A stretch of DNA of 64,000 bases from assembly GCA_024401435.1 (NCBI GenBank), contig JAKSLB010000005.1, forward strand, positions 1-64,000. The letters run 5' to 3'. The position numbers and the translations under genes were made by a program. The stretch's first letter is position 1. The number at the start of each line of letters is the position of its first letter. This document shows, one piece after another, positions 27,001 to 47,632 of the stretch. Below the pieces are notes generated by a model that made no database searches, had not been told where the DNA came from, and saw only the letters and a list, made by a program, of their open reading frames with translations. This DNA is from Paludibacteraceae bacterium (GTDB lineage Bacteria; Bacteroidota; Bacteroidia; Bacteroidales; Paludibacteraceae).

Positions 27001-30000
27001 TGAGGTTCTTGATAAGCTTGGATACACTGCCTGGGATGCTTGTGCGGGTGATTCTGTTCCTGGCTTATTAACGATTGATGGTATGCTTGAACTTCCAGAG
27101 GAATATACCATGTCTGTTGGTGTTACCTATAAATTGTTATGGTTGTTCCAAGATGCAGATAAAAACAGAACTACTTGTCCGCAATATATTTTACCATCAC
27201 ATGTAAATGATATTAATTTTGATTGTAATACAATAAAAGACACATCAGTATTTGCAGCTGCGGGAGAATGTTCTATCTCGGCAGATTCTTTGAAGCTACC
27301 TACTCCGGTTGCGATAGATTCATGTGCTGAATTGTCTGGTTTGGGAGGAGAATTCCCTGCTGTCGGTTATCGATCAGATTCTCTTCCTATGACCGCTCCT
27401 TTCCCTACGGGAAATACGTTGGTTAAATGGATGTTTGTTAGTCCATGGAATCTTCATGATACATTATGGTGTGAACAAAATGTATTTGTCAAGGGAAATA
27501 AACATTTTGATTTGGATTGTGAGACACTTACACCGAACAAGTTAGAAATCTTGTCTGATTGTGGTCCGACCGATCCTGAAAAATTCGCAATTGATACTCC
27601 GAGAGTCGCTGATCCATGTATTGTTGACGAGAACAATCCTGAATATTGGAGATATGGTAAGGGAACTCGTTCTGATGCAAAAGATTTAACCGAACCATTC
27701 TCATTAGGTTTGACTAATATTCAATGGATATTCACTGACTTTACGGATGCTATTCATGATACATGTTCGCAAGATATTTATATCAGAACATCTTTGGATA
27801 TGATCTTTGATTGTGATTCGTTAACGGCTGATACAATTAAGATTGATGCTGTTGAAGGTGAGTGTACAGTAGATGCTTCTTTGGTGAAAGATAAGATAAA
27901 AACTCCATTTGCTCTTCATCCATGTCCAACAGAGAGTGGTGTGGATACAATATGGGGTACACCAGAACGTCGTTTTGGTACGCCGATGGATTCTTCTTAT
28001 TACGTAGGATTGACAGAAATCATTTGGACATTTATTGATACATCAGCAACTTTAGTTCATGATACGATGACTTGCTCTCAATGGATTCAGGTAGGTGATG
28101 TAAACCAAATGCCAGTTAAATGTGAAAATTACCCAGATATGGTTTATCGATTGAATCCTAATGACTGTGAAATTTCATGGAAGGATTTGAATCTGAATAT
28201 TCCTCCTGTAGTAGATCTTTGCTCTCATAAGATTATTGATCCTGTTGTGACAAGATCATCTGGTAAGAACTTAACATTAGTAACAACTATAACTGGCACA
28301 GATACAACTGTTGTTATTGATGCAGACGCATTCTCAGTTGGCGTTGATACTTTAGTATGGACCTATTCATTCCAAGGTCAACTTTTCGTCTGTGACCAAA
28401 TTATTACGGTGAAAGATAGTATGCAACCTATCTTTGATTGTTCTTCTTTAACTGCATTAGAAGTATTTGTTTCTGGTACATGTGAAGCACCTGCATCAAC
28501 TATAGTTGATTCTTTGCCAAATCCATGGCCAGCTGCTGAGGAGCAATGTACGAAGCAACTTATTCCAGGTCGTGTTTATTTAGAGGATGGTCGTGAATTG
28601 GATCCGACTTCTAAGTTTACTGTGGCTGTTGGAAGTCATCGATTAACTTGGGTCTTTATTGATACGGTAATCAATGAAATAGGAGATACATGTTATCAAG
28701 ACCTTGTTATTAAGAGTGATTTTAAACCTATTATTAATTGTGATACGTTACCATTAGATACGTTTATAACTTATAATTGTGATACTATTCTATCACAAAG
28801 TAGTATTCGTATCCCAGTTGCTTTGGATTCTTGTACGAAAGATACTATATATGGTACAGGTACACGTTCTGATGGAAAGAGACTTTATGATGACCCATAT
28901 TCAGTCGGAACTACGATCATTTCATGGATGTTTGTAAGTCCTTATTCAACTGAGGTCTCTATTTGTACACAACCAATTGTAGTTCTTACTCAGAAAGAAC
29001 CTGAGTTCAATTGCGATGATTTGGATACAATTCGTGTTGCATCTGAACCAGGTGAGTGTTTCGCTGCGCTTACTGCAATCATAGATAAGTTACCTGATCC
29101 TATTGCTACTGAAGCATGTACGGGTAATAAGATCCATGGAAAATATTCTGCAGAGGATGGAGGTCCATTACCTGACAAGTTTATTGTCGGTGATACTACC
29201 TATATAAAATGGACTTTCATGGATTCTGCTTATAATGCAGTTCCTAAGATTTGTTATCAACCAGTATTGGTTACAGGCGATCAAAAACCTTTGTTTGATT
29301 GTGATACGTTTAGTCATGATACAATTATTATAGAAGGTTGTGATACTACCTTAGACGCTCAGACTATTCATACGCCAATTGCTTTGGATGCTTGTACAGG
29401 TGACACCGTATATGGCATTGGAGAAAGATTAAATGGAGAACCATTGTATGGGGTATATCCAGTAGGTACGACAACTATTCGTTGGAAATTTATCAGTCCG
29501 TTCTCTTCTGTATCCGATTCATGTGATCAACAAATAACTTTGTTGACTACCAAAGAAATTGATTTCAATTGTGAGGATTTGAAACCAGATAGTATCAATG
29601 TGGAAAAAGGCGAGTGCTCAGTTTTGGTTGAGTTGCCTACTCAATGGGCTAAACATCCATGTCCTGAACAATCTGGTGTGTCAAAAATAATTGGTGTTCC
29701 TTCTCTTGGAACAGATACATTTACATTAAACGAGGATTCAACAAAATGGTCTAAGATTGTTCCAACTGGAGTGTGGACAATTCAGTGGACATTTACTGAT
29801 ACTTCTAACACATTGGAAAATCCTGTAAAGAAGTGTGACCAAACCTTGTTTATTGGTGATGTTAATGATATGCCAGTTAAATGTGACAATTATCCTGATA
29901 CGATCATTGTTTTGCCACCTACAGATTGTGAAATATCTTGGTCGATGATAGGATTTGTTGATTCTGTTGTTGTCGATTTATGTTCTGGTGATACGGTTAA

Positions 30001-33000
30001 TCCAGTATATACAAGATGGAGCGGAAAAACAATGAGTGATCCATTCACTGTTGGTATTGATACCATCTACAGATCTTATTCTTATGAAGGACAAAACGTA
30101 GTTTGTAAACAGAGAATAGATGTTTTAGATTCTGTGGCTCCTTATTTCAATTGTGATACCTTGAAACCAATTGAGATTGTTGCTCCAAAGGGTAAATGTG
30201 AAATAACATCCGATTTGTTAGAAGATTCACTTGGCGTTTGGTATGCGGTAGATTCTTGTACTAGTGCTCAAGTTTTAGGCGTAGCATATGTTGACGGAAT
30301 TGAGGTGAAGAACGTGTCCGCACATGTGGGTGACACGTTGAATGTACATTGGATTTTTAAAGATTCCACTTTGAATGCGGTTGCTAAGGAGTGTGATCAG
30401 TTGGTTACTGTTGTGGGTCAAAGCGAACCATTGTTTGACTGTAATTCATTGGAAGATTTGACATACAAAATACATGTTGGAGATTGCGCATTCCCTGGAG
30501 ATTCTTTGAACTTAACCATCCCAATAGCATTAGATTCATGTACTAATACAGAAGTGGAAGGTGTAGCCTCTCGTCAAGACGGCTTGTCAATGAGTGATTC
30601 TTTTGCAGTGGGCGAGACAATGATTGATTGGACATTCAAGAGTCCATATAGTATCAATCCAAAGATCTGCTCTCAGAAGATAGTAGTTGAAGACAAAAAT
30701 GCACCTACACCAGATTGTGATGCTTTGCCAGATACAATCAGAGTTAGAATCACAGATGAGTCTAAGTTTGAAACTGAGATTACGTATGAGGAGTTGTTAA
30801 AGGCGAAAGATTTTGTGATTCCTACCGTCGACGATCCTTGTGATGGTTTGATAACTGCTGTGGGTGTTCGTGAAGATGGTAAACAAATGGAAGATAATTA
30901 TCCATTAGGAATAATTGATATCAATTGGATTTACACAGATAAATCAGGTAACTCTGACACTTGTCATCAGGTTATCAAGGTTGAAGATTATTTGATAGAT
31001 ACATTGTATTGCCCAAGTGGATGGAATCATAAGACAATTTCTTGTGCTGATGAACTTCCAAAAGTTTATGAAACATATCAAGAATTTATTAACGCAGGAG
31101 GTAGTTTCTCTAATCCAGCAAAGGTTAATGAAAGTACTTTCCGTATGACTGAATCATTCACAGGAACACAATATTGTGATGAGACATATTACAGGACATA
31201 TCATGTGACGGATGTGCGCAGCAATGATATTTCATGTACAGACACGGTATATGTAAAAGATACACAAGCACCTGTCTTTACAAATCTCTTAAGAGACATA
31301 ACGATTGCATGTACAGATTCTATTCCAGATCCAGCAAAAGTTGAGGTGACAGATTGTGATCCAAATCCTGTTGTGACAATGAAGGAAGTTAGTCATCAAG
31401 GTACGAATCCTTCTCAATGTGACTATTACACCTACGATATAGATCGTACTTGGGTGGCAGTCGACCGATGTGGTAACAGGGATACGATGGTTCAAATAAT
31501 ACATGTGGTGGATACAATCGGTCCTTCTTTCGATTTCCCAGAAGATTGGAAAGAGGAAGTGCTTTCTATTTATCGTAAAGGTTGTTTGTTTGAAGTACCA
31601 GACTTCTCGGTGACAGCTCGAGCAATTGCTACTGATAATTGCTCTGACGTGAATAACTTGTTTATTGAACAAACGCCTAAGGCAGGAGAGTATATTACAA
31701 AAACATCCGATGTGATTGTAAAAGTATCCGATATGTGCGGTAATTCAGATTCCTTTACGGTTAGTGTGTATGTTCCATTACGCGAAAGTATAACATCTAT
31801 CTATGCATATGATACAACTACTTGTGTCTCTGATAACCATGCGTTGAATTTGAATACACAAAAAACCAGATATGCAAAGGGTCGTTATTTGATAGAAGAT
31901 CCTTTCGATAACTCATATTATTATGTGGAAAGTACATTCTACTATGATATATTTAGAGGACACATATCTGATTCTACGGTTGTATATAGTTCTAATCCAT
32001 ATACTTATCTGATAGATGAAAATCAAAAGACGGAATTAGCACCTCTTACTCGTCATGCAAGTAGTGACAGATATTATTTTGTTGCATACGATACGTTGAC
32101 ATTATGTTCTGATACATCTTCAGCGATGATTCGATTGAAAGAACGCCCAAGAATTTCATTAGAATCTACATCTTATGATGTTTGTGAATTGGTTCATATC
32201 GATTCTACTATGTTATATGATTATCTACAGTGTACAGATAATATGGGTGGTGATACAGTATTGTCTGAAGGCTGGTTGTATGCTGGAGAAAAGTTTGATT
32301 TGGAGAAAGATACTATTCCATATAGTTCGAAAAATTATTCATTTGTTTACTATATGGAAAATGAGTGTGGAATGTCTACTTCTTTAGACTCTTATGCAGA
32401 GTTCTGCGGAACAGAATTAGAAACACGACAAGATAGTATCGATTATGTGGGAGGAAAAGAAAACTTGCAATTATTAAAAGACGATAAATTTGTCAAGTCA
32501 GATTCTATTACAATGTATGTTCATCAAAGATTCTTACCAAAGAATATTATTATAACGACAGAACCACATGATCCAAGTCGTATTTGGTTGGGTGAAATTG
32601 TTGAGTTACAATTACATACTGATTATGATTATACAACATTAACATGGCATAAAGTCGTTGGAGAATATGACAGAAAAGATGTGATTGTTGGAAAAGATGA
32701 AAAAGAATTTGAATTTATTCCAGAAAATGATGATGAAGTTGACGAAATTTTGTATATTGCAGGTCGAAATTCAAATCAAATTATTCAGGATTCGCCTAAG
32801 GACACGACAATTTATTATGTAACATTATCCGATGGTGTATGTCCTTCTGTAGCAAGTGATTTGGCTCAGGTTAATGTAATAACAAAATTACCAACAGCGT
32901 TCACTCCTTATGATAAAGATGGTTTGAATGATACATTTATGGAGAGACATTATGTTGTAATTTATGATAGATACGGACAAAAGGTATTTGAGGGATCGAA

Positions 33001-33121
33001 TGGATGGGATGGAACTCATCAAGGTCAAATGGCTGATCCGGGTGTTTATTATTATTTGGTAACAATGACAGATGGCTCTTTGCAAAAAGGAACAATAGAA
33101 ATTATATATTTGAATAAATGA
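21080..33121 (+). CDS. Giant (4,013 aa) HYR/Ig-repeat surface protein with type IX type B sorting domain
   Basis: A signal peptide (residues 1-26, ending SAYAQ) leads into an N-terminal region with Cys-rich Ig-like and lectin-like segments (to ~residue 720). About 24 modules of roughly 90-150 residues follow, each ending in a strand like W-x-F-x-D...C and a join such as VTVVDKTGPYVDC, the signature of HYR (Ig-like) domains. The modules have a conserved Cys pattern consistent with disulphides. The last ~80 residues (from 3936: LPTAFTPYDKDGLNDTF ... YDRYGQKVFEGSNGWDG) are the gliding-associated C-terminal domain. No enzyme motif is seen, so an adhesin, sheath or gliding role is likely (inference; compare SprB-type adhesins). 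It heads a two-gene unit with the 909-residue protein 28 bases downstream. The frame is intact over 12 kb. Confidence 0.92.
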   Translation: MKSFSAFIGRLGAFVLMSLMTVSAYAQALRTNSNEVCFGEPVVLSISNFGSGAVFVYKSEDGGNSFKKVASSGADKTGTITYVENMQREVVYYFEDQKNSSLKTSPVKITLKSNCKEVCHTTTTGEYYLGTDFNPTNGCNENQIDFNSLNCLENHFRTNGITFRGCVGSKVVRGWKPNGRGSTDRDVQEGVEGLNYYNVFNGGSCNNTPFTLIFDEKQYYGKSFRFTMRLYVDMSNCYGDFDSEAKMNFRTSFGNDAALYVDMDMYDVYNQSRLLKSYHVGPKYTHVDNDLKVGGDLNSFYRQGVRVVRMEFTFYGTFRTNNPGTQLMIYPEFQQWKSCAQVAVDYISGEAANVCLEHGAVCTGEMAHVNAAGFPKGAYYKWEKLDPRTNIWSPMDANGFNGQYDGKQSIDVLVDYVGTRKYRVSDSNSNMQPLEFTITGENCEPLQPSDIEGPEGLCVPNSAEQGKFSVYPLDANELVRYTWKFITPSGAEFGSDRISFSGGKLDTVRRGGSIYLVLDGTAEEGVYTAIVQPVKTAYGQDGQPYEQLAGDPIKKTFTVYRTPQIQVIKEGTDPLKQDEVLLCATDRSQKIVAIADVKSGFSSIHEGKYVYTWKYGAKGKTFESVVDFPDMGSCDGSYKEHSARVDVEISGVGCKASAETSWKLAPIEKPTIKCPVNNSLTYTLGTTQKEYSIRWDFPEYTAGCETNPTLKVDLNFTPKVGSKITNNVITSRNEINSLTKIFSLPAGEGTITYSVVDGCGNEAKCQMLITVKDVTPPSLPCDEIPHYTTKLTLQEGCDAAPEYDHSTLPTIVPPVLRDLNGVDGEVVGQYRGRVANPATIPTPQSFDESMFDVKVDMNENYVVGDTYILWAFSDASGNTAYCIQIVSVEDDRKPNVNCIDPNIGYVKSLEGECGLSVTGLFSQMKEIPTGKDVCSGEGQDLTAEIYYRNALDDDFIHVPLSDFEKIIFYVGESYDVIWRFFKIKNAAIYEDCIGQISVQDSEPPHFDCSTLPSIRVTANSFKPENKGYVYLDYATKADVKQGKDTYRGTLAEIFENNDIRLIDPSELIDNCHGDVTIITTLTGPSDPTGKEKTETITSLKQLEDHKYYVGLTTINYQFIDEHGNSSSCAQTIIVTAGTTPIPDCPSTADTTVYVDEQCKTEFVLTKAQVPTAKIPVNQEGAWFQMSHNSVSSLHLKSGDCTELANYYPDNINNLSGVHPLQNQPGPALPGGPTPGGSQEFTIEYLCDQYMNNWDKFNGNNGNNFWRVWSSNFDANNQDKILIKSNSLTTVVEYTGYPYEVELLDPDGVSIVKVENPYEEDDKAATRVLAPRFYDQGGRGTECKELSHVCEYADVKLQNHFNDQIIKESLSKGDYRLVYRFQNEKGGIQIDSCVIFVHVSDSIPPVLECGDWNKSGEFVAGPDCRVPVDSVPWFKKPTAVDLNAKDNCTTDIDKFKISWKRSWESYKDIAIDAALTDAFLIGVTTMKWIVTDESGNSSYCEQTITVVDKTGPYVDCSKLTTIYAETEENCEASAESVIKAGLSTPYADDDVCSPTGGRIPGEGVRDDGKDVFTDPYPRGTTTITWTFKDSLDNISTCTQKVVITDHTNPVFDKCDEMEDVTIVLEPDECTASKDVVEAALGSFTAIDDCDGDVPGIPHVLLPDSTLADLYDSFIKDTTYIIVWTFTDLSGNSISCSHRLTIKDVTTPHVDEVCKDPETDVDATVTCSVDYDELHLPDISEMILNDKCDGPLTPQMVAKIAQPDHSYMTYENEELKTITYPVTATGYPHKIWWIYTDKAGNKDTCQMLININDKTLPVLEDCDVDPVIHLTVDGDICAMNPANVKAYVVEPKAHDECDDYLSQQGLTWMTPVVQRFYIDSTLVLGTLGDTLGYNYDTTMVADGITKMWDEDVFPKGTTMMRWIFTDHSGNSVSCEKSIIIHDYTPPYFDCDEIQPDTLRPEAHKGECQVEFGNLKREVLDKLGYTAWDACAGDSVPGLLTIDGMLELPEEYTMSVGVTYKLLWLFQDADKNRTTCPQYILPSHVNDINFDCNTIKDTSVFAAAGECSISADSLKLPTPVAIDSCAELSGLGGEFPAVGYRSDSLPMTAPFPTGNTLVKWMFVSPWNLHDTLWCEQNVFVKGNKHFDLDCETLTPNKLEILSDCGPTDPEKFAIDTPRVADPCIVDENNPEYWRYGKGTRSDAKDLTEPFSLGLTNIQWIFTDFTDAIHDTCSQDIYIRTSLDMIFDCDSLTADTIKIDAVEGECTVDASLVKDKIKTPFALHPCPTESGVDTIWGTPERRFGTPMDSSYYVGLTEIIWTFIDTSATLVHDTMTCSQWIQVGDVNQMPVKCENYPDMVYRLNPNDCEISWKDLNLNIPPVVDLCSHKIIDPVVTRSSGKNLTLVTTITGTDTTVVIDADAFSVGVDTLVWTYSFQGQLFVCDQIITVKDSMQPIFDCSSLTALEVFVSGTCEAPASTIVDSLPNPWPAAEEQCTKQLIPGRVYLEDGRELDPTSKFTVAVGSHRLTWVFIDTVINEIGDTCYQDLVIKSDFKPIINCDTLPLDTFITYNCDTILSQSSIRIPVALDSCTKDTIYGTGTRSDGKRLYDDPYSVGTTIISWMFVSPYSTEVSICTQPIVVLTQKEPEFNCDDLDTIRVASEPGECFAALTAIIDKLPDPIATEACTGNKIHGKYSAEDGGPLPDKFIVGDTTYIKWTFMDSAYNAVPKICYQPVLVTGDQKPLFDCDTFSHDTIIIEGCDTTLDAQTIHTPIALDACTGDTVYGIGERLNGEPLYGVYPVGTTTIRWKFISPFSSVSDSCDQQITLLTTKEIDFNCEDLKPDSINVEKGECSVLVELPTQWAKHPCPEQSGVSKIIGVPSLGTDTFTLNEDSTKWSKIVPTGVWTIQWTFTDTSNTLENPVKKCDQTLFIGDVNDMPVKCDNYPDTIIVLPPTDCEISWSMIGFVDSVVVDLCSGDTVNPVYTRWSGKTMSDPFTVGIDTIYRSYSYEGQNVVCKQRIDVLDSVAPYFNCDTLKPIEIVAPKGKCEITSDLLEDSLGVWYAVDSCTSAQVLGVAYVDGIEVKNVSAHVGDTLNVHWIFKDSTLNAVAKECDQLVTVVGQSEPLFDCNSLEDLTYKIHVGDCAFPGDSLNLTIPIALDSCTNTEVEGVASRQDGLSMSDSFAVGETMIDWTFKSPYSINPKICSQKIVVEDKNAPTPDCDALPDTIRVRITDESKFETEITYEELLKAKDFVIPTVDDPCDGLITAVGVREDGKQMEDNYPLGIIDINWIYTDKSGNSDTCHQVIKVEDYLIDTLYCPSGWNHKTISCADELPKVYETYQEFINAGGSFSNPAKVNESTFRMTESFTGTQYCDETYYRTYHVTDVRSNDISCTDTVYVKDTQAPVFTNLLRDITIACTDSIPDPAKVEVTDCDPNPVVTMKEVSHQGTNPSQCDYYTYDIDRTWVAVDRCGNRDTMVQIIHVVDTIGPSFDFPEDWKEEVLSIYRKGCLFEVPDFSVTARAIATDNCSDVNNLFIEQTPKAGEYITKTSDVIVKVSDMCGNSDSFTVSVYVPLRESITSIYAYDTTTCVSDNHALNLNTQKTRYAKGRYLIEDPFDNSYYYVESTFYYDIFRGHISDSTVVYSSNPYTYLIDENQKTELAPLTRHASSDRYYFVAYDTLTLCSDTSSAMIRLKERPRISLESTSYDVCELVHIDSTMLYDYLQCTDNMGGDTVLSEGWLYAGEKFDLEKDTIPYSSKNYSFVYYMENECGMSTSLDSYAEFCGTELETRQDSIDYVGGKENLQLLKDDKFVKSDSITMYVHQRFLPKNIIITTEPHDPSRIWLGEIVELQLHTDYDYTTLTWHKVVGEYDRKDVIVGKDEKEFEFIPENDDEVDEILYIAGRNSNQIIQDSPKDTTIYYVTLSDGVCPSVASDLAQVNVITKLPTAFTPYDKDGLNDTFMERHYVVIYDRYGQKVFEGSNGWDGTHQGQMADPGVYYYLVTMTDGSLQKGTIEIIYLNK

Positions 33122-38151: not shown

Positions 38152-41100
38152 ATGAAACGTATAATTTTTGCTATTAGCTTAACTATTTTTTCTTATTTTT
38201 TGTTAGGGGCAGCATCTCAGGTCGGATGTACACCTGATTTGCATGTTGATGGAAATCAATTAAAAGATCCTGCAGGAAATATAGTTGTATTACATGGAGT
38301 AATGGATACTCCAAGTATGTGGTTTAATAATGATCGTTGGACGAGTTGGGATTTGGGAGGGTATGTTCCTGAAGCAGCTCCGAGAGCGATTGAGTATTTT
38401 AACAAAATATTTGATGCCATTACTGACCGTTCGCAAGGTGCCTATTGTAATGTGTTTCGTTTACACATGGAACCGTCTTGGTTGAGACGAGATGGCGTAC
38501 AGTCAACAGGTGAAAGTGATATGGCAACAACATATGATAGGGATAAGGTAAAATTATACTTAGAAAAACTCTTCATTCCTATTGCTGAAAATGCCAAAGC
38601 TCATGGCTTGTACATTATAATGCGTCCTCCTGGTGTTTGCCCAGAAGATATACAAGTAGGTGATGCCTATCAAAACTATTTAATGGACGTATGGGATATT
38701 GTTTCTCAGAACGAAAAAATCAAGGAGTATTCTGGATGGTTATCTATTGAGTTGGCAAATGAACCCGTTCGTGTAAAGGATGCCAATGGAAATCGTCCTA
38801 CGGATGGAACGTGGGGACCAGCCAATGGTCCAGCCAAGACTGATTTTTTCCAACCTATCATCGATAAGATTCGTAAAAATGGTTTTAAAGGTGTCATATG
38901 GGTACCAGGAGAGGGATATCAGTCATCGTATGAGAGTTATGAAAAGTATCCTATCAGTGATAGTAATTATGGATTTGCTGTTCATGTGTATCCAGGATGG
39001 TATGGTAATGAAGATAGTAATGCGAATGCACAAACATTTATTTCCAATTTTAAAAGCCAAGTCCCTGGTGTAACATCAAAACCAGTAGCGGTGACTGAAA
39101 TTGATTGGTCACCAGGTAATATCGTGTATAATGCAGATGGAACCCCCAAATTGAAATATGATGGTAACTATGAAACAGATGGTAATTATGGGACATGGGG
39201 AACAGCATCAACATCAAAATGGGGAAGTGCCTTTAAAGCGATGAAGGATTATTATGGGAATATATCCATGACGTTGACAGGTACGGATGATTATGTGGAT
39301 ATGAAGGAATTCTTGAAATCAGGGAAAGTTCAAGCTGCATTTTTAGACAAACAATTCCCTGAAGAAGGTTGTGGAGTTGCATGTTTCAAGTGGTATAAGG
39401 AGTATGCACAAAAGAATGCACCCATATGTGATGAAAATTATGTTTCGGTTTCAATAAAATGTTCATCTAATGATGTGTCATCTGATGATGAAAATGTACT
39501 TTTTGAAGTAGATGCAAAAGGAGGAAATGACATATCTAAGGTGGAAGTTTACGATAACGGAAAATTGATAGAAAGCTTAACTCAATCTCCGTATCAACTT
39601 TCCATATCGAACTTAAGTAAAGGAAGTCACACAATTAAGGCCGTCGCAACTGATGTAAAAGGAAATGAAGACGAATCTTCGCTTGAAATGAAGGTGAGAG
39701 GTCCACAAGAAGCATATAATGGAATTCTATCACAAATACCCGGCAAAATAGAAGCAGAGAATTTTGATGAAGGAGGAGAAGGATATGCCTATCATGATGA
39801 AGAGGAGGAGAATAAAGAGATGGGAGCAAGAACAGATGAGGGAGTGGATGTGAAATCCAATTCAGAACGTACCTGCATCGGATGGACAGTAAAAGGAGAA
39901 TGGTTGGAATATACGGTAGAAGTTAAAGAGACAATGCAATACAAGTATACTGTATATGCAGCCACTGACAATAATGATGCAGCTTTCCATTTTGAAATCG
40001 ATGGGGAAGAGATAACGGATACGAAAATAGTTGGAAGTACAGGAGACTGGGATAGTTATAAAGGCGTATCGGGAGTTACGAAAGAGATAACAGCAGGAAC
40101 GCATGTTCTTCGCTTAGTGATTGATGAATCCTTCTTTGATGTGGATTGGTTCTCGTTCCAACCATGGTATGATTTAAAGAAGATAAATTTATTCCAAAAA
40201 GGGAAATTGGTCTATGCTTCAGACGAATTATTAGATAGTATTGTGTTTAAGGATCCTGCATCGTATGGATATAAGGATAAACAAATATTGTTCTCGACGC
40301 ATGAGTTATTGGATAGCATTACCTTCCAATTGGAGGATGAGACAATAGGAGAAGGAGGATTGATAACTGATGATTTTGTATACGATAAGAATTTGAGCTA
40401 TCGTGACATGGATGCCTATTTAGGAACGTGCTATGGAGCGCAAGGAACGATAGTCAAGGAGACATACAATGGAATCAATGGGAACAACACGTTGTATGTA
40501 TATTTACCAGTAGGATATGATAAGAACAAGAAATACAATATATTCTATTTGATGCATGGAGGAGGAGAAAACGAAACAACCATATTTGGAAGTGATGTGA
40601 TGATGCAGAATATTTTAGACAATTTGATTAAGGCAGGAAAGATAGAGCCGATGATTGTTGTAACTCCAACATTTAATAAATGTGAAGCAGCAACGTTTTG
40701 GAAAGAGTTTCGACAGAGTGTGGTGCCGTTTGTGGAAGGTAAATATTCGACCTATGCTAACAGTACATCGTTAGACGATTTGAAAGCATCGAGAATGCAT
40801 CGAGCCTACGGAGGATTTTCAATGGGTGGATTGTCGGCATGGAATGTGTTTGCAAATTGTTTGGACATAGTAGGATATCACATGCCATTAAGTGGGAATT
40901 ACTGGTATGGAGATACAGGAGAGGATGCCGCAAGGGAGTTGAACAATGTAGTTGAGCGTTCTGGATTGGCAGATAATCAGTTTGCAATATTTTGTGCAAC
41001 AGGATCAGAAGATATAGCTTATAATAATATAAATCCGCAAATGGATGCGATGAAGAAGTTGTCACATTTCCATTATACGTCAGACTTTAATGAAGGAAAT

Positions 41101-41208
41101 TTATATTATTTGGTAGCACCAGGGAAAACCCATTGGTGGGGATATGTAAAACACTATGTAGCACAAGGATTACCCTATTTCTTCCACAAAGATTTTATTG
41201 TCAAATAG
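38152..41208 (+). CDS. Bifunctional GH5 hydrolase - CBM6 - CE1 esterase
   Basis: 1,018 residues with a signal peptide (1 to ~22). Residues ~27-415 are a GH5 (cellulase superfamily) barrel: acid/base Glu204 in ELANEPV and nucleophile Glu316 in VAVTEIDWS. Residues ~430-517 are an Ig-like module (VEVYDNGKLIESL). Residues ~525-680 are a CBM6-type binding domain (GKIEAENFDEGG, GEWLEYTVEV, DVDWFSFQP). Two short hairpins ending LLDSIVF and LLDSITF link to a CE1 esterase (~745-1018) with nucleophile Ser890 in GGFSMGGLS and a late His in GKTHWWGY. CE1 enzymes remove acetyl or feruloyl groups from xylan, so the protein likely cuts a decorated hemicellulose backbone and its ester links together (inference on substrate). 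It lacks a type IX sorting domain, so it is probably periplasmic or secreted by another route. Confidence 0.92.
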   Translation: MKRIIFAISLTIFSYFLLGAASQVGCTPDLHVDGNQLKDPAGNIVVLHGVMDTPSMWFNNDRWTSWDLGGYVPEAAPRAIEYFNKIFDAITDRSQGAYCNVFRLHMEPSWLRRDGVQSTGESDMATTYDRDKVKLYLEKLFIPIAENAKAHGLYIIMRPPGVCPEDIQVGDAYQNYLMDVWDIVSQNEKIKEYSGWLSIELANEPVRVKDANGNRPTDGTWGPANGPAKTDFFQPIIDKIRKNGFKGVIWVPGEGYQSSYESYEKYPISDSNYGFAVHVYPGWYGNEDSNANAQTFISNFKSQVPGVTSKPVAVTEIDWSPGNIVYNADGTPKLKYDGNYETDGNYGTWGTASTSKWGSAFKAMKDYYGNISMTLTGTDDYVDMKEFLKSGKVQAAFLDKQFPEEGCGVACFKWYKEYAQKNAPICDENYVSVSIKCSSNDVSSDDENVLFEVDAKGGNDISKVEVYDNGKLIESLTQSPYQLSISNLSKGSHTIKAVATDVKGNEDESSLEMKVRGPQEAYNGILSQIPGKIEAENFDEGGEGYAYHDEEEENKEMGARTDEGVDVKSNSERTCIGWTVKGEWLEYTVEVKETMQYKYTVYAATDNNDAAFHFEIDGEEITDTKIVGSTGDWDSYKGVSGVTKEITAGTHVLRLVIDESFFDVDWFSFQPWYDLKKINLFQKGKLVYASDELLDSIVFKDPASYGYKDKQILFSTHELLDSITFQLEDETIGEGGLITDDFVYDKNLSYRDMDAYLGTCYGAQGTIVKETYNGINGNNTLYVYLPVGYDKNKKYNIFYLMHGGGENETTIFGSDVMMQNILDNLIKAGKIEPMIVVTPTFNKCEAATFWKEFRQSVVPFVEGKYSTYANSTSLDDLKASRMHRAYGGFSMGGLSAWNVFANCLDIVGYHMPLSGNYWYGDTGEDAARELNNVVERSGLADNQFAIFCATGSEDIAYNNINPQMDAMKKLSHFHYTSDFNEGNLYYLVAPGKTHWWGYVKHYVAQGLPYFFHKDFIVK

Positions 41209-41418: not shown

Positions 41419-41449
41419 TTTGATAAAAAATCTGATTTGTGTATATTTG
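41419..41449 (+). promoter_or_regulatory. Promoter of the aminotransferase-LicD locus
   Basis: TTTG at 41419-41422, 19 bases, TATATTTG at 41442-41449: an ideal Bacteroidota promoter. Transcription would start near 41457, giving a ~130-nt leader that contains a short ORF. Confidence 0.65.
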
Positions 41450-41522
41450 TGCATATTAAGGTTTTTATTGCGTGTATTATGCAGTTGAAGTCCTTAATAT
41501 AAAACTTGATTTAGTTTAGTGA

Positions 41523-41594
41523 ATGAAACAAGAGAGTGACTCAATAGATTTTGATCGGTTGATAAGTTCCATGATAAAGCGTGAGTATGTCTGA
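41523..41594 (+). other. Leader-type short ORF overlapping the aminotransferase start
   Basis: ATG to TGA, 23 codons, ending SSMIKREYV; its stop overlaps the first codons of the aminotransferase in another frame. It may couple translation. Alternatively it is the true N-terminus separated by a single-base frameshift, since ...REYV followed by SDDLNLTVDQQF reads naturally. Confidence 0.3.
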
Positions 41595-42693
41595 TGATTT
41601 GAATTTAACAGTAGACCAACAATTTTTGCGGCAATATTACAGTCGTTACGGTGGTTTCTGGCGTTTCCCTAATATGCTTGATTATTGCTATTTAGTGAAT
41701 CCTTGCTTTAAAGACTGCGGCATCATTCGTGAAATGCAAGAGTTTTTCCCGACTTTAGTAACAGAGTATCCGTCAGGTATGGTTGTCAATAGTTCTCTGG
41801 CTGGTGAGTGTTGGGGCGTGAAGCCTGAGTATATTATTCCTGGTAATGGTGCGGCAGAGTTAATTAAGGTCTTGATGGAAAGCACTGAGGGAAAAGTAGG
41901 TGTGATTCGTCCTACTTTTGAAGAGTATCCAAATAGACTCTCGGAAGAGCAATTAGTGCCTTTTGTCTCAGAAAAGACTGATTTTCGTTATGACGAGGAT
42001 GATTTAATTGAATTCTTTAGTTGCCATCCAATTGATACGCTTTTGCTAATTAATCCTGATAATCCTTCTGGTAATTTTATAGACAAGAAGGGATTATTAA
42101 AACTCATAGCTTGGACAAAAAAAAGAAAAATCAAGTTGGTTTTAGATGAGAGCTTTGTAGATTTTAGTGTAGGCTATACAGAAAATTCTTGTGTCGAAAA
42201 TATATTGTTAGAGGAGAATCCTCATATGATGGTAGTGAAATCCATCTCCAAAAGTTATGGCGTGCCAGGTCTTCGTTTAGGCATTCTATGTAGTGGAGAC
42301 AAAGCACTTCTTGCTGCGATGAAGAAACGTGTGAGCATTTGGAATATCAACTCTTTCGCTGAGTTTTTTATGCAGATTTTCCCGAAGTACCGCATGGAGT
42401 ACAAGGAAGCTTGTGATACCTTTATTCGTATTCGTGATAAGTTTCAACAAGAGTTGGAGAAGATTCCATATATTCATGTGATGCCTTCTCAAGCCAATTA
42501 TTTCTTTTTGGAAGTGTTTCCTCCTTATGAAGTGGAGGAACTTTGTGCCATTCTTTTAAAAGATTATAATATATTGGTCAGTGCATGCTTGGCGAAGAAG
42601 GGCATTGAACCGAATCGATTTATGCGCATTGCAGTGCGTGACGAGAAAGATAACAACCGGTTTATTCAAGTACTTAAAGATTTGACCAAATGA
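41587..42693 (+). CDS. PLP-dependent class I/II aminotransferase (HisC/CobD-like) of a glycan-modification locus
   Basis: 368 residues from the ATG at 41587; a GTG six bases earlier is possible. Fold-type I aminotransferase landmarks are complete: NPDNPSG, Asp in LVLDESFVDFS for the pyridine nitrogen, the Schiff-base Lys in KSISKSYGVPGLRLG, and Arg in FMRIAVRD for the substrate carboxylate. It resembles histidinol-phosphate aminotransferase and threonine-phosphate decarboxylase, but the setting is not histidine or cobalamin synthesis. In related loci the domain can be fused to a nucleotidyltransferase; here it stands alone. It overlaps the next gene by four bases. A role in making an amino-containing small molecule for CDP activation is inferred. 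Confidence 0.85.
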   Translation: MSDDLNLTVDQQFLRQYYSRYGGFWRFPNMLDYCYLVNPCFKDCGIIREMQEFFPTLVTEYPSGMVVNSSLAGECWGVKPEYIIPGNGAAELIKVLMESTEGKVGVIRPTFEEYPNRLSEEQLVPFVSEKTDFRYDEDDLIEFFSCHPIDTLLLINPDNPSGNFIDKKGLLKLIAWTKKRKIKLVLDESFVDFSVGYTENSCVENILLEENPHMMVVKSISKSYGVPGLRLGILCSGDKALLAAMKKRVSIWNINSFAEFFMQIFPKYRMEYKEACDTFIRIRDKFQQELEKIPYIHVMPSQANYFFLEVFPPYEVEELCAILLKDYNILVSACLAKKGIEPNRFMRIAVRDEKDNNRFIQVLKDLTK

Positions 42694-43703
42694 AAAGAAT
42701 ATGTATTTGCGGAGGTGGTTCGTTAGGTCATGTGTGTGCTGGTGTCTTAAGTTCGCAAAGTGATGTAAACGTGAATGTGTTCACGCGCTCTCCTGAAAAA
42801 TGGACTCGTCAATTGATTGTCAAAGACCTTAATGGCAAGGTATATGAGGGCAATATAAAGGTTATAAGTGATAATCCTCAAGAAGTTTTAGAAGCTTGTG
42901 ATATCATATTGCTTTGTCTTCCTGGATATGCGATAGAGAACACATTAGAAATTATTAAGCCTTATATTGGAGAATCTGTTGTGGGTTCCATTGTATGTAG
43001 TACAGGTTTCTTTTTCTTCGCTCATAGAATTCTTGGTGAGAGAACAAGATTATTTGGATTTCAACGTGTGCCATTTATCGCTCGTTTGGAAGAGTATGGA
43101 CATTCTGCCAATCTGCTTGGATACAAACAACAGTTGTTTATCGCACATGAAAATATAAGTGATGTGGAATCTTTTCGCTCTTTTGTCGAACGATTGTGGC
43201 TAACACCAGTGAAACTTTTATCATCATATTATGAAGCCTCTTTGACTAATAGTAATCCGATTCTTCATACAGGTAGATTGTATGATATGTGGAAGGATTG
43301 GAATGGCGAATTATATGATCACAATATTTTATTTTATAAAGAGTGGACGATTGAATCTAGTCAGATTCTTATTGATATGGATGCTGAATTCATGCGTTTA
43401 CTTGATGTGCTTCCGGTCGCAAAAAACGCAATCCCTTCTTTGTTGGAATACTACGAAAGTCATGATGCGGAAAGTCTGTGTAGGAAGATTCGCAATATTC
43501 CTGCTTTTGAGAATATAACATCTCCGATGAAACAGGTTAAAGGTGGGTGGATTCCTGATTTTGAATCTAGGTATTTTGTTGAAGATTTCCCTTATGGACT
43601 CTATTTTATCAAAACATTGGCCGAAGAGAAAGGAATAGATACTCCTGTAATTAATAGAGTTTATGAATGGGGTATGAGTGTATGTAATAAAAAAAGATCA
43701 TAA
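42690..43703 (+). CDS. NAD(P)-dependent opine/octopine dehydrogenase-like oxidoreductase
   Basis: 337 residues. The N-terminus is a Rossmann fold (ICICGGGSLGHVCAGVL, then DIILLCLPGYAIE). The C-terminal half has the helical domain of the octopine/nopaline dehydrogenase family, including the substrate-site motif SNPILHTGRLYDMW. Family members reductively join an amino acid to a keto acid or reduce related substrates. Placed between an aminotransferase and a cytidylyltransferase, it probably helps build the small molecule that is later CDP-activated (inference). It overlaps the aminotransferase by four bases and ends one base before the next ATG. Confidence 0.8.
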   Translation: MKRICICGGGSLGHVCAGVLSSQSDVNVNVFTRSPEKWTRQLIVKDLNGKVYEGNIKVISDNPQEVLEACDIILLCLPGYAIENTLEIIKPYIGESVVGSIVCSTGFFFFAHRILGERTRLFGFQRVPFIARLEEYGHSANLLGYKQQLFIAHENISDVESFRSFVERLWLTPVKLLSSYYEASLTNSNPILHTGRLYDMWKDWNGELYDHNILFYKEWTIESSQILIDMDAEFMRLLDVLPVAKNAIPSLLEYYESHDAESLCRKIRNIPAFENITSPMKQVKGGWIPDFESRYFVEDFPYGLYFIKTLAEEKGIDTPVINRVYEWGMSVCNKKRS

Positions 43704-43704
43704 T

Positions 43705-44871
43705 ATGGCACACATCAAAACCTCCAAAGGATTTTTAGAATACAATAGTCACTTATTGTTCTTCGGAAATAAGGTCATCAACAAAGAGGTAATGTCAGAC
43801 AATTTACATGTGTTATCCCTTTGTTTGGACAAGATAGATATCAATTGGGGTCCAGCCTTTGGTACGTTGATCGGTATTGTTCGCAATAACGATTTTCAAC
43901 CATGGAAACCTGTCTTTGATATCTATATTCTTAAGGAAGATGAAGAACGATTTAAGGATGTTTTGTGGTTGATGGTGGAGGTGGGGTTCGAATTGGTGCG
44001 TTATGAGCGTAGGGGATTGTATTACCTAAAACGCAATAATGAGTACATCAAGGTGTTTGTGCTTCGTAAAATCAGTGCAGATGTGCGTCATACGGGTGGT
44101 TCTGACTTTATCCACGAGAAGTATTTACAGAATACTGTGACGTGGAATTTCAAGGGAGTTGAACTCAATGTGCCAGAGAAGGTGGATGAGTATTTGGAGT
44201 TTCAATACGGTTCGGATTGGGTGACACCGAAACAGACGGTTATCTATTCCAATACTTTCTTTGCTAAGCTTTGGCATTGGATGACAATAACGATACAGGA
44301 CCATTTACCTGATAATATTTACTATTGGTGGTTGTATCAACATCGTCAAAAGGATTTCCAAAAGTTTGAACATCGTTGTGAAAAGTATGGAATTGATTTG
44401 CCGAAGATTTTTCAATTGTCTAATATAAAGCCAAGAAAGTACAAAAAGGTGCTGACGGTGGGTGTTTATGATTTGATTCACAAAGGGCATGTTGAGTTAT
44501 ATCGTAGAGCAAAGGGATTGGGAGACTATTTGATTGTTGCAGTACAGGATAGTGACTTCATCCTAAAATATAAACCTACGGCGAAGATTCTAAATTCAAC
44601 AGAAGATCGCAAATATATGATTAAGGCAATTCGCTATGTCGATGAGGTGATAACTTACAAGGATGTGGATGAGATTGTCAAGGAAATCGATTTCGATGTT
44701 TTTGTGACGGGTCCTGATCAATGCCATGAGGGATTCCAAAAAGCGATTCAATGGTGTGAGGATCATGGAAAGGAGCATATTGTTCTATCTCGTACAAGTG
44801 GTGTAAGTTCCAGCGAACTGAAATCAAAGATAGCATCGAAGATGGAAGTTGGACATCCTCTTGAAAAATAA
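43705..44871 (+). CDS. LicD-like domain fused to a TagD-type cytidylyltransferase
   Basis: 388 residues from the ATG at 43705; a GTG 27 bases upstream is in frame but overlaps the previous gene. Residues ~35-190 have the LicD/fukutin plan (GPAFGTLIGIVRNNDFQPW), yet the usual DDD-x-D metal site is replaced by KPVFD (68-72), leaving one Asp. Residues ~248-380 are a cytidylyltransferase of the glycerol-3-phosphate/ethanolamine-phosphate type: VGVYDLIHKGHVELYRRAK with the HxGH site, and RTSGVSSSELKS near the end. The enzyme should make a CDP-linked alcohol or amine from CTP and a phosphorylated substrate. The LicD half may be a binding or scaffold domain. Substrate is not determinable. Confidence 0.85.
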   Translation: MAHIKTSKGFLEYNSHLLFFGNKVINKEVMSDNLHVLSLCLDKIDINWGPAFGTLIGIVRNNDFQPWKPVFDIYILKEDEERFKDVLWLMVEVGFELVRYERRGLYYLKRNNEYIKVFVLRKISADVRHTGGSDFIHEKYLQNTVTWNFKGVELNVPEKVDEYLEFQYGSDWVTPKQTVIYSNTFFAKLWHWMTITIQDHLPDNIYYWWLYQHRQKDFQKFEHRCEKYGIDLPKIFQLSNIKPRKYKKVLTVGVYDLIHKGHVELYRRAKGLGDYLIVAVQDSDFILKYKPTAKILNSTEDRKYMIKAIRYVDEVITYKDVDEIVKEIDFDVFVTGPDQCHEGFQKAIQWCEDHGKEHIVLSRTSGVSSSELKSKIASKMEVGHPLEK

Positions 44872-44995
44872 TAGAAAATGAAGATTGTCTGATTCGAAAA
44901 TCAAATTTGAAAAGGTAATAAAAATGAGATAATTAAATTTGATTTTTCATTTTCCATAATTGTATATTCATAAATGTGTTTTCGAATTATTCGTT

Positions 44996-45003
44996 TAAAT
45001 TTG
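44996..45003 (+). promoter_or_regulatory. Candidate -7 box for the second LicD gene
   Basis: TAAATTTG fits TAnnTTTG and lies 93 bases before the chosen ATG. The 44872-45095 gap is very AT-rich and otherwise empty, so the locus may have two transcription units. Confidence 0.4.
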
Positions 45004-45095
45004 CAATGCGGTTGAATGTATTAATAAAAGAGTTTTGATTGGGTGTAAAAATAAACGTTCATCGTTGGGGGTTAATTAAAAAAAAATATTTTGAA

Positions 45096-45800
45096 ATGAG
45101 AGATATTATAGTTAGGTTGTTGGTTATAATTGGATTGTATAAGCCGGTAGTTGATCTTATCAATCGATGTAAATTTGAGATACAGTCTCGTCGTATGAAA
45201 AAGAATGGACTTAAAATGCTAAAAGAGGCGGACCAAGCACTTGATCAGATTGGTGTGCGTGCATTTCTAACGTATGGAGTTTTGTTAGGAGCTTATAGAG
45301 AAAAAACTTTTATATCATACGATCCTGATATAGACTTAGGTATTTTGAATTCTGAAATTCCAGAAAATATGCATGAAGTGATGAAAAATGCAGGTTTCCA
45401 ATTATATAAACAATCCTTTTTTAAAGATTCTGGACAGGTTTTTGAAGAAACATATATATATGAAGGAATTCATTTGGATATGTTTTATTATTTTGAAGAG
45501 GGTGATGATTTATATAGTGTTATAGCTCGTAACCATGAGTTTAAAGATTGGAAAGAAGCTAACGTGACGGATGGATTTCCTTGTGATCGAAGTTATGTTC
45601 CTAAAACGGATTTTGAACGCAGAGAATTCCTTGGATTGAAAATTTTCATGCCTGTGAAAACGCATGAATGGTTGACAGATATCTATTCTGATTCATATAT
45701 GACTCCAGTAAAGAATTGGAATGCAAAAGATTATAAAACCCGTATTGTAAAGACTGGTGATCGATGTTATCGTAAATATTGTGATGTTATAGTAGATTAA
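45096..45800 (+). CDS. LicD/fukutin-family phosphotransferase
   Basis: 234 residues from the ATG at 45096; the frame is open back to a TTG at 45039 but that would give a weak start. LicD proteins transfer a phosphorylated group (phosphocholine, phosphoethanolamine or ribitol phosphate in known cases) from a CDP donor to a sugar. The motif is complete here: YGVLLGAYREKTFISY followed by DPDID (Asp76, Asp78, Asp80), with KTHEWLTDIY later as the usual second conserved segment. It is probably the active transferase that works with the CDP donor made by the preceding fusion protein. Confidence 0.82.
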   Translation: MRDIIVRLLVIIGLYKPVVDLINRCKFEIQSRRMKKNGLKMLKEADQALDQIGVRAFLTYGVLLGAYREKTFISYDPDIDLGILNSEIPENMHEVMKNAGFQLYKQSFFKDSGQVFEETYIYEGIHLDMFYYFEEGDDLYSVIARNHEFKDWKEANVTDGFPCDRSYVPKTDFERREFLGLKIFMPVKTHEWLTDIYSDSYMTPVKNWNAKDYKTRIVKTGDRCYRKYCDVIVD

Positions 45801-45812
45801 AGTGATTAGTTT

Positions 45813-46724
45813 ATGAGAACAATTTCTGAATATAAAACCATTTTACAAAAAAAAGGATGGTATGTTTGTTGTAAAGAACTGAAAAAATCTTTATGCCCAA
45901 TTTGGTTTACTCATAATAGAGGTGCAATAGAACAAATAGAAACAGAACGTGTATATAAGTATTTAAAACGAAAATATTCAAGTATCTATTTGAGTGATGT
46001 CGAGGATGATTATGACAAAAATCCTTCACGCATTATATGGATCTGTTGGCTTCAAGGACGAAATGTGGCACCTGAAATAGTTCAAAAGTGCATTAATTCT
46101 GTAGAAAAATATGCTTATGAATATGAAGTTAAAATTTTAACAGAAGAAAATATGTTAGAGTATGTTTCTATGCCAAAAAAGGTTATTGAAAAATACAAAA
46201 AAGGAAAGATTTCGTTTACACAATTTTCTGACGTGTTAAGATGTTGTTTACTATATGAACATGGAGGTATTTGGATGGATTCAACCGTTCTTTTAACAGA
46301 TAATTTACCATCGTATGTAACAGACAATCATTTTTTTGTTTTTAGAACTTCTATGTTGTCAAAAACATATTGCGCGTCTTCAAGTTGGTTTATTTTAGCG
46401 CAAAAGGGACATCCTATTATGAAGTTATGTAGAGATTTGTTATTTTCATATTGGGAAAAGGAATCTTATTTGAAAAATTATTACATTTTTCATATATTTT
46501 TCTATTTGCTTGTTACTGAAAATCCTATTTGTAGAAAGTTGTTTAATCAAATGCCATACATTCCCAATGTTGATTCACATACTTTACAATTTATTTTGAG
46601 TGAACCATATTCGGAAAAAAAATGGAAAGAAGTGATTGATCGAAGTTCAATACATAAATTGACATATAAATACTCTAAAAACAAAGATTATTCAAATACT
46701 TTTTTATCTCATATTTTGTCATGA
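45813..46724 (+). CDS. Capsular-polysaccharide-type glycosyltransferase (Caps_synth/GT32-like)
   Basis: 303 residues. It carries the GT-A features of the Caps_synth/GT32-like family: IIWICWLQGRNVAPEIVQKC near residue 75, then FSDVLRCCLLYEHGGIWMDST at ~138-158, where the D-x-x-R and the acidic WMD site bind the sugar nucleotide. The family adds sugars to capsule or O-antigen-like chains in the cytoplasm. No signal peptide or membrane helix is seen apart from a hydrophobic stretch near residue 225. It overlaps the next glycosyltransferase by four bases. Confidence 0.85.
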   Translation: MRTISEYKTILQKKGWYVCCKELKKSLCPIWFTHNRGAIEQIETERVYKYLKRKYSSIYLSDVEDDYDKNPSRIIWICWLQGRNVAPEIVQKCINSVEKYAYEYEVKILTEENMLEYVSMPKKVIEKYKKGKISFTQFSDVLRCCLLYEHGGIWMDSTVLLTDNLPSYVTDNHFFVFRTSMLSKTYCASSSWFILAQKGHPIMKLCRDLLFSYWEKESYLKNYYIFHIFFYLLVTENPICRKLFNQMPYIPNVDSHTLQFILSEPYSEKKWKEVIDRSSIHKLTYKYSKNKDYSNTFLSHILS

Positions 46725-47632
46725 AATTAAGCGTTGTAATATGTACATATAATAGAGAACGATATATATATGAATGTTTGTCTCGTTTAATAAAAAACAA
46801 GTTTCACGAAGATTGGGAATTAATTTTAGTTGATAATAATTCAACAGATAATACTAAATTAGAATGTGCTCGTTTTGAAACAGATTATCAACCTTCTAAT
46901 TATAAATATGTATTAGAAATAAATCAAGGATTGTCGTTTGCTCGTAATCGTGGAATAAGAGAGTCGACGGGTGATTGGATTATTTTTTTAGATGATGATG
47001 CATATGTGACAGAATCGTATTTGCTTAATATACATCAATGTCTGTGTTCTTATCCTGACGCAGGGGCTTTCGGTGGCGCAATAATACCTGTCTTTGAAGG
47101 GGAAGAACCTGATTGGTTAAATCCGTGGTCAAGATCGTATGTTTCTGCATTAAATTTGGGAGAAAATGTTTCTGTTTTTAAAAAAGGCAAGTATCCTATT
47201 GGTGCTAATATGGGTATTTCAAAAAATGTATTTGAACAAGTCGGGTGTTTTAATACAAGGTTAGGAAGAACATCCACTTTATTGTTGGGAGGAGAAGAAA
47301 AGGATATTTTTTATAAAATACGACAAGCGGGTTTTCCTATTTATTATTTCCCCAAAATTGGCGTTTATCATAATATTCCACAAAAGCGAACAACGCTTGC
47401 TTTTGTGGAACGATTAGGATTAGGAGTTGGTATTAGTGAACGTCATAGAACGTTATCGATTTCTGAAATTAACTACGTTTTTCGTTTATTATCAGAATGT
47501 GGAAAGTGGGGAGGTACGTTCATTTTATTTATGTATTATTTATTTAAAAGGCAATCTTCTAAAGGTCGGGTTTTGTTAATTTTTCGTAAAAATGTAACCC
47601 TAGGGCTCCTGCACTTAAAAGTAATGCAATAA
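46721..47632 (+). CDS. Family 2 glycosyltransferase
   Basis: 303 residues. The GT2 fold is clear: SVVICTYNRERYIYECL, VDNNSTDNT, NQGLSFARNRGI and the metal-binding LDDDAYV (Asp91-93), then GANMGISKNVF and LLGGEEKDIFYKI as the acceptor-side motif. A hydrophobic segment near residues 265-280 may attach it to the membrane. It ends the surface-glycan locus. Its last 74 bases overlap the end of the convergent YfhO-like gene on the other strand. Confidence 0.88.
   Translation: MKLSVVICTYNRERYIYECLSRLIKNKFHEDWELILVDNNSTDNTKLECARFETDYQPSNYKYVLEINQGLSFARNRGIRESTGDWIIFLDDDAYVTESYLLNIHQCLCSYPDAGAFGGAIIPVFEGEEPDWLNPWSRSYVSALNLGENVSVFKKGKYPIGANMGISKNVFEQVGCFNTRLGRTSTLLLGGEEKDIFYKIRQAGFPIYYFPKIGVYHNIPQKRTTLAFVERLGLGVGISERHRTLSISEINYVFRLLSECGKWGGTFILFMYYLFKRQSSKGRVLLIFRKNVTLGLLHLKVMQ

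Follow-up and report, generated by a model that had tools for sequence, protein, structure and literature searches.

What is made by the six genes that run along the forward strand between positions 41581 and 47632 of a 64,000-nucleotide stretch of DNA from a Paludibacteraceae bacterium? The stretch (positions 1 to 64,000 of contig JAKSLB010000005.1, assembly GCA_024401435.1; hereafter the window) belongs to a genome of 3.83 Mb in 204 contigs that is 93% complete. The genes encode a pyridoxal phosphate (PLP) enzyme, an opine-dehydrogenase homologue, a fusion of a LicD domain with a cytidylyltransferase, a second LicD and two glycosyltransferases. A reading made from the sequence alone (the sequence-only reading) had proposed that the first three enzymes make an unusual amino compound and activate it with cytidine diphosphate (CDP), and that the second LicD attaches it to a surface sugar. 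With regard to substrates, product, order of steps and acceptor, we infer, as a reasonably probable answer, that the product of the cassette is an opine-type amino alcohol, activated as its CDP derivative, which is attached to a surface glycan via a phosphodiester. The looser claim, that a phosphorylated amine is reductively N-alkylated, CDP-activated and transferred by LicD, we hold to be very likely. The enzyme families, the operon structure, the domain fusions and the co-occurrence of the genes are direct observations.

The tight coupling of the first three genes was confirmed. The PLP gene (41581 to 42693) and the opine-dehydrogenase gene (42690 to 43703) overlap by four bases (ATGA), and a single base lies between the stop of the latter and the fusion gene (43705 to 44871), given ATG 43705 as its start. 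The second LicD gene (45096 to 45800) and the two glycosyltransferase genes (45813 to 46724 and 46721 to 47632) follow. The PLP gene starts with GTG at 41581, with an in-frame ATG at 41587, while the fusion open reading frame (ORF) is open from GTG 43678, ATG 43705 agreeing with the start of the orthologue in locus L025. The second LicD ORF is open from TTG 45039, but its true start is probably ATG 45096, since the L055 and L057 orthologues begin there with nearly identical residues. This start leaves a gap of 224 bases behind the fusion gene, and therefore the second LicD may be transcribed separately from the first three genes. No gene begins at 41419, where the gene set had been said to start; a candidate promoter was found there instead (41419 to 41449, forward strand, 5' of the operon) by a pattern search for TTTG-N19-TATATTTG, which we take to be the Bacteroidales promoter consensus. 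The window holds 6 matches to this pattern, where 2.75 +/- 1.65 would be expected by chance, and a scan for sigma-70 promoters and terminators gave chance level only. The Pfam matches of all six genes exceed the curated cut-offs, those of both LicD domains narrowly (cut-off 22.6 bits).

Which amine would enter the pathway depends on the PLP enzyme, which had been called an aminotransferase. Judged by sequence and structure model it looks rather like a decarboxylase of the CobD/SMUL_1544 type, predicted to act on O-phospho-L-serine. It matches Aminotran_1_2 of Pfam (112 bits) and has a fold type I PLP domain with the PLP lysine and, close to the C-terminus, a pair of arginines, and its best match by hidden Markov model (HMM), PDB sequence and model is to the CobD decarboxylases. 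The CobD model TIGR01140 scores 159.1 bits against a cut-off of 290.55 and is still the best NCBIfam model matched. By sequence, the nearest solved relative is SMUL_1544 (6oux, 7e-45), compared with 3e-30 for Salmonella CobD. SMUL_1544 makes ethanolamine phosphate and prefers serine phosphate. K224 (presumably the PLP lysine), R349 and R353 are conserved in 69 of 69 sequences and also in 6oux and 1lc5, a test without power to separate decarboxylases from related aminotransferases. In the family tree, the window enzyme forms one clade with those of L025 and L029 (100/100), and CobD and SMUL_1544 sit on very long branches. The structure models were built from 32 and 38 rows picked by an 80% identity filter, the second without 8 of the 45 picked relatives. 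The CobD profile has six matches in the host genome, none above the cut-off, with the top three (147-191 bits) on three contigs and the window gene second. Since the strongest match, on contig C161, stands beside genes that we read as hisD-like and hisG-like, the gene in the window probably has a specialised role of its own, and a role as HisC or in vitamin B12 synthesis was rejected for it.

The second enzyme has the PF02317 domain (Octopine_DH, 111.5 bits) and the two-domain opine dehydrogenase fold. His212 and the sensor Arg324 for reduced nicotinamide adenine dinucleotide (NADH) of octopine dehydrogenase (OcDH) are kept as H193 and R294 in 81 of 81 sequences. In contrast, the arginine site of OcDH (Glu142/Trp278) is absent from the family: the Glu142 position holds Gln in 78 of 81 sequences, with Arg in two others and His in one, the next residue is Arg in all 81, and at the Trp278 position T, S, P, R and G are commonest, together accounting for 80 of 81. 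In OcDH, Glu142 binds the guanidinium of arginine, according to the available text of PMC2924402. Gln followed by an invariant Arg in place of this glutamate fits the need of a phosphate-bearing amine, and the enzyme is predicted to join phosphoethanolamine (or CDP-ethanolamine) to pyruvate.

Activation with cytidine triphosphate (CTP) is predicted for the C-terminal half of the fusion protein, whose cytidylyltransferase domain (44452 to 44823; Pfam, residues 259-382 of the ORF from 43678) is of the TagD/PCYT2 type (1coz 5.6e-21, 3elb 6.7e-16). It matches CTP_transf_like with 59.4 bits (cut-off 21) and contains HKGH and RTSGVSSS, presumably the HxGH and RTxGxSSS-type motifs, and the glycerol-3-phosphate cytidylyltransferase equivalog TIGR01518 falls short (77.2 bits against a cut-off of 165.4). 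The LicD half (28.7 bits) has lost the acidic motif, which we take to be catalytic: the window protein and its L025 counterpart read KPVFDIY in place of the DDDxD or DPDID-like residues of the LicDs used for comparison, and standalone relatives in L131 and L150 retain HDEDIDLG. This half thus looks catalytically dead. The description "intact LicD" does hold for the second LicD (PF04991, 26.3 bits), which keeps DPDID, is predicted to hand the activated group on to a glycan and has orthologues directly 3' of the opine dehydrogenase in L055 (63% identity), L057 (53%) and L059 (68%). Outside the window the exact fusion protein was found only in L025, where the entire order of PLP enzyme, dehydrogenase, fusion and LicD is repeated; at full length the two-domain fusion occurs in no other genome among 295 of the order. 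The host genome has three LicD matches in its 3.83 Mb, one of which (L002:1195-3378) is the C-terminal part of a far longer protein with an open frame of 808 residues. The last two genes of the cassette, a Caps_synth glycosyltransferase (PF05704, 275 bits) and a GT2 glycosyltransferase (PF00535, Glycos_transf_2, 105 bits), possibly make the acceptor glycan.

The presence of both a LicD and a cytidylyltransferase would also be consistent with a conventional Lic phosphocholine decoration. As the sequence-only reading had noted, there is no choline kinase: the genome, at its 93% completeness, has no PF01633 match (the search did not extend to the wider APH family of kinases), and a choline-kinase route is disfavoured for it. 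Furthermore, there is no methyltransferase among the six genes, which include an opine dehydrogenase instead. We consider phosphocholine extremely unlikely.

We propose instead that the CobD-like enzyme would decarboxylate O-phospho-L-serine to phosphoethanolamine, and that the opine dehydrogenase would combine this amine with an alpha-keto acid (pyruvate being the likeliest) and reduce the imine to give N-(1-carboxyethyl)ethanolamine phosphate. The cytidylyltransferase half of the fusion would then use CTP to form the CDP derivative, from which the intact LicD would transfer the phosphorylated group as a phosphodiester to the sugar made by the two glycosyltransferases. The middle two steps are possibly reversed, with CDP-ethanolamine as the substrate of the dehydrogenase. 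The gene order in the window would suit N-alkylation before activation, whereas the fusion pairs of the relatives (nucleotidyltransferase with PLP enzyme; dehydrogenase with LicD) would suit activation before N-alkylation.

How widely is this arrangement found? The dehydrogenase alignment, run against the GTDB species collection, gave 409 relatives, and the neighbourhood counts given here refer to the best 80 of the 409, which by title come from Bacteroidales, other Bacteroidota and Fibrobacter, with one 'uncultured bacterium'. The PLP enzyme is encoded in the same locus in 66 of the 80, presence being defined by BLASTP at >45% identity, so that L082, with a 34% partial match at a contig end, was scored as absent. 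In 62 loci it shares one frame with a LicC-type nucleotidyltransferase and in a 63rd (L030) the frame is interrupted; it stands alone in L025 and L029 and is cut by the contig end in L055. The interrupted gene (L018:9503-11453, the same as L030:6036-7986) is broken between its domains in that assembly, and intact copies exist elsewhere. The PLP gene lies upstream of the dehydrogenase gene within 133 bases in 65 of the 66 loci, with a 4-base overlap in 29.

This adjacency bears on a plainer explanation, in which the first and third enzymes make CDP-ethanolamine for a simple phosphoethanolamine decoration and the opine dehydrogenase has another job. The plain version probably exists, since in L131 and L150 LicD comes immediately after the nucleotidyltransferase-PLP fusion and the fetched stretch gave no match to an opine dehydrogenase. 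For the window it seems improbable, given that the dehydrogenase comes directly after the PLP enzyme both here and in those 65 relatives, and that in 12 of the 80 loci it is joined to a canonical LicD in one protein. Otherwise, LicD starts no more than 150 bases past the dehydrogenase end in 20 of the 80 (18 on the same strand) and lies elsewhere in the fetched flank in 27. None was seen in 21 of the 80 loci; of the 40 loci with >7.5 kb on both sides, 10 show none. These counts used an HMM built from these loci, on either strand. The curated Pfam model, run on the downstream neighbours of 50 of the 80 loci (complete, on the same strand and no more than 400 bases away), detected LicD in 17 of them and a CDP-glycerol-type transferase in 2. 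A strict, self-written form of the acidic motif is present in 52 of 74 LicD-like ORFs.

Nine of the 80 loci have a kinase variant instead of the PLP enzyme, and five have neither by the cut-offs used. The kinase-variant loci (L056, L058, L062, L066, L069, L070, L072, L074 and L084) are without a CobD-like enzyme and encode an opine dehydrogenase, a separate LicC-type nucleotidyltransferase and, in all nine, an amidohydrolase (in two frames in L062). A nucleotidyltransferase-choline/ethanolamine-kinase fusion is present in eight, the ninth being cut by a contig end. In L072 a cytidylyltransferase-like domain fused to a GFO/IDH/MocA oxidoreductase (L072:13481-14821) adjoins LicD.

Within the order, the dehydrogenase has a match at E 1e-10 in 12 of 295 genomes, 6 of them in the close clade (at least 37% identity), and the PLP enzyme at E 1e-60 also in 12. 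Each of the 6 close-clade genomes is also one of those 12 carrying the PLP enzyme (hypergeometric 1.1e-9, with no account taken of relatedness); in G293 and G194 the two genes are on different contigs. In the other six genomes with the PLP enzyme, its gene adjoins an ornithine cyclodeaminase (OCD)-family reductase in G139 and G034 and a LicD, with no dehydrogenase match, in G101 and G286. G151 has neither reductase nor LicD in the fetched stretch, and G202 has a remote PLP match (34%) with a separate nucleotidyltransferase. The gene set is no local accident. The sequence-only reading would have been refuted by a lack of co-occurrence in other genomes; the PLP enzyme, the dehydrogenase and LicD do occur together elsewhere, and the exact fusion protein recurs in L025 only.

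Remote Bacteroidales opine dehydrogenases (L022-L024, identity 25-28%) lack a PLP fusion in their vicinity, and the nucleotidyltransferase-PLP protein, searched at E 1e-80 in a phylum-wide sample of 395 genomes, gave 2 matches, the window's own and one at 32%. A plasmid collection yielded 26 records, rhizobial ones among them, and the regions of two Burkholderia-group records, one from Serratia and one from P. mirabilis were examined. Within 6 kb of the 26% dehydrogenase in the unannotated P. mirabilis stretch, a script found neither a PLP enzyme nor a nucleotidyltransferase or LicD. The Burkholderia-group plasmids L111 and L112 carry pairs of octopine-dehydrogenase homologues with a phytanoyl-CoA dioxygenase, a methyltransferase and a tyrosinase, an unrelated setting.

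Further evidence comes from unrelated enzymes that occupy the same place. For activation, most of the 80 relatives carry a LicC-type nucleotidyltransferase in one protein with the PLP enzyme (that of L028 matches 1jyk at 9e-11 and PntC, 6pd1, at 2e-10), and the window and L025 carry a TagD-type cytidylyltransferase beside a standalone PLP enzyme. Likewise, in L147 (4702-5613) and L148 (7790-8734) a member of the OCD/mu-crystallin family (95 and 116 bits, cut-off 24) follows the fused PLP enzyme in the dehydrogenase's place. These two reductases match the models for ornithine cyclodeaminase, alanine dehydrogenase, SbnB and pyrroline-2-carboxylate reductase below their cut-offs, and those families work at C-N bonds beside a carboxylate. 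The finding of unrelated reductase families and of two unrelated cytidylyltransferase folds in one place therefore supports the pathway logic. On a plasmid of the cyanobacterium Gloeothece verrucosa (L159:5977-9439), a fused nucleotidyltransferase-PLP enzyme, an S-adenosylmethionine-dependent methyltransferase and LicD are encoded consecutively, possibly a route from serine to a methylated phosphoethanolamine decoration. All four variants (activation, imine reduction, methylation, none) make sense with a shared phosphoethanolamine or CDP-ethanolamine intermediate. It is about as likely as not that this is a general platform for tailoring surface glycans, in which a CobD-like decarboxylase and a cytidylyltransferase give activated ethanolamine and an exchangeable N-tailoring step (opine dehydrogenase, OCD-family imine reductase, methyltransferase or none) precedes LicD. 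If so, the opine-dehydrogenase branch would yield a nucleotide-activated opine, and to our knowledge no such class of metabolite has been reported.

The amine itself could be a different one. By the same logic, threonine phosphate would give (R)-1-aminopropan-2-ol phosphate, or dihydroxyacetone phosphate would be transaminated to serinol phosphate, followed by N-carboxyethylation by the opine dehydrogenase. CobD itself acts on threonine phosphate (PDB titles), the phosphate-amine logic and the Gln-Arg pair fit equally well, and the C. jejuni capsule uses both the serine-phosphate decarboxylase Cj1436 and the serinol-phosphate-forming Cj1437, according to the available text of PMC12409886. Ethanolamine is indicated, however, by the choline/ethanolamine-kinase-like enzymes of the nine loci where the PLP enzyme is missing (eight seen whole or partly, the ninth at a contig end) and by the methyltransferase after the PLP fusion in the cyanobacterial locus. 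The closeness to SMUL_1544, with its preference for serine phosphate, also argues against another amine, which we regard as rather unlikely.

A few relatives lie in other settings. In Fusobacterium vincentii (L155:4023-8833) a nucleotidyltransferase-PLP fusion, 49% identical to that of L028, occurs with LicD and polysaccharide-type genes, and neither an opine dehydrogenase nor an OCD-type reductase matched in that stretch. On plasmids of Rahnella and Bradyrhizobium the fused or paired enzyme stands beside CDP-alcohol phosphatidyltransferases, not LicD, and therefore the product there may also enter lipids or small molecules. The Rahnella sikkimica region (L156:6980-15791) has the fusion, a CDP-alcohol phosphatidyltransferase, two HAD proteins, MaoC, SDR, ATP-grasp and MFS and looks like an undescribed small-molecule cluster. 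On the plasmid of Bradyrhizobium sp. 187 (L158:5753-9737), a phosphoenolpyruvate (PEP) mutase, a phosphocholine-cytidylyltransferase-like gene, a CDP-alcohol phosphatidyltransferase and a CobD/HisC-like PLP enzyme occur together, possibly as a phosphonolipid route.

The PEP mutase beside related genes in Bradyrhizobium raises the question of whether the activated compound is instead 2-aminoethylphosphonate or its N-carboxyethyl derivative, in a tailoring pathway like that of PntC, a LicC-type cytidylyltransferase joined to a PLP enzyme (6pd1; PMC6697681, in its available text). The window's PLP domain is of class I/II and CobD-like, whereas 6pd1 is titled class V. In the 93% complete host genome no PEP mutase scored above the cut-off; the sole weak match (30.4 against 31.5 bits) reads, in our own reading, as ketopantoate hydroxymethyltransferase and is not a mutase by motif. 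EDK(X)5NS, presumably the mutase motif, is present in no ORF of at least 100 residues in L017-L104. A phosphonate route is therefore disfavoured for this genome and seems very unlikely.

Several neighbours of the cassette deserve mention. The last 74 bases of the GT2 gene (47559-47632) overlap a convergent ORF of 809 residues, and just 5' of the cassette a multidomain enzyme is encoded (38152-41208) with GH5-like, Ig, CBM6 and esterase parts. The window also encodes two giant proteins with C-terminal CHU_C type IX sorting domains, one of 2887 residues (7968-16631) with a GH8 match and one of 4013 residues (21080-33121) with HYR domains.

Is the pathway new? It is a real, conserved and modular pathway of glycan decoration whose general kind, CDP activation with LicD transfer, is known; we know of no described member of this kind with an imine-reductive tailoring step. 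Charged phospho-substituents affect the recognition of bacterial glycans by host and phage, and their prediction from genomes would be useful for that reason. If the preferred reading, a CDP-activated N-carboxyethyl ethanolamine, is true, genes would be assigned to a zwitterionic glycan substituent known to us only as chemistry, and this substituent would be predicted in many Bacteroidales and Fibrobacter of the gut and rumen (the dehydrogenase has 409 relatives, of which the best 80 were examined). Opine dehydrogenases would gain a role in surface glycans, and four activities on two polypeptides (for example in L091) could be tested in vitro.

The substituent itself, N-[(R)-1-carboxyethyl]ethanolamine phosphate (R-Cet-EtnP), occurs in Proteus mirabilis, in a serotype that we take to be O14. 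It is a listed component of the O-polysaccharide in the available part of PMC9630907, which assigns no genes to it, and Proteus belongs to another phylum. The main text of a survey of Proteus O-antigen genes contains neither ethanolamine nor carboxyethyl (PMC5560731), and no gene assignment for the substituent was found in the open-access literature (most subscription journals were outside the search). The substituent is thus probably known already, and its route and spread have probably not been described. Of the earlier proposal, the making, activation and attachment of an amino compound are supported by the co-occurrence, the fusions and the unrelated enzymes in the same place. The chemistry is perhaps not new, and "undescribed" would apply to the route and its spread, which appear new, rather than to the likely product.

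Compared with the Lic pathway (LicA-LicC-LicD), the cassette shares CDP activation and LicD transfer, and in 63 of the 80 relatives the PLP enzyme is paired with a LicC-type nucleotidyltransferase. It differs in that the PLP enzyme, not a choline kinase, would supply the amine and the opine dehydrogenase would tailor it, and the window differs further in its TagD/PCYT2-type cytidylyltransferase. With the Pnt system, as described in the available text of PMC6697681, the relatives share a cytidylyltransferase joined to a PLP enzyme with LicD-like genes near; the cassette lacks a PEP mutase, has a CobD-like rather than a class V PLP domain and has the additional imine-reducing enzyme. The cassette dehydrogenases share fold and active-site His and Arg with octopine and other opine dehydrogenases but have Gln and an invariant Arg at the Glu142 site of OcDH, and some are fused to LicD. 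SMUL_1544 and CobD are closest to the PLP enzyme in solved fold and sequence, but the latter scores under the CobD cut-off, belongs to a glycan cassette and in most of the 80 relatives is fused to a nucleotidyltransferase. Cj1436, compared by description and not by sequence, likewise converts serine phosphate to ethanolamine phosphate for a surface glycan, but in C. jejuni this amine forms an amide on glucuronate and is not CDP-activated, according to the available text of PMC12409886.

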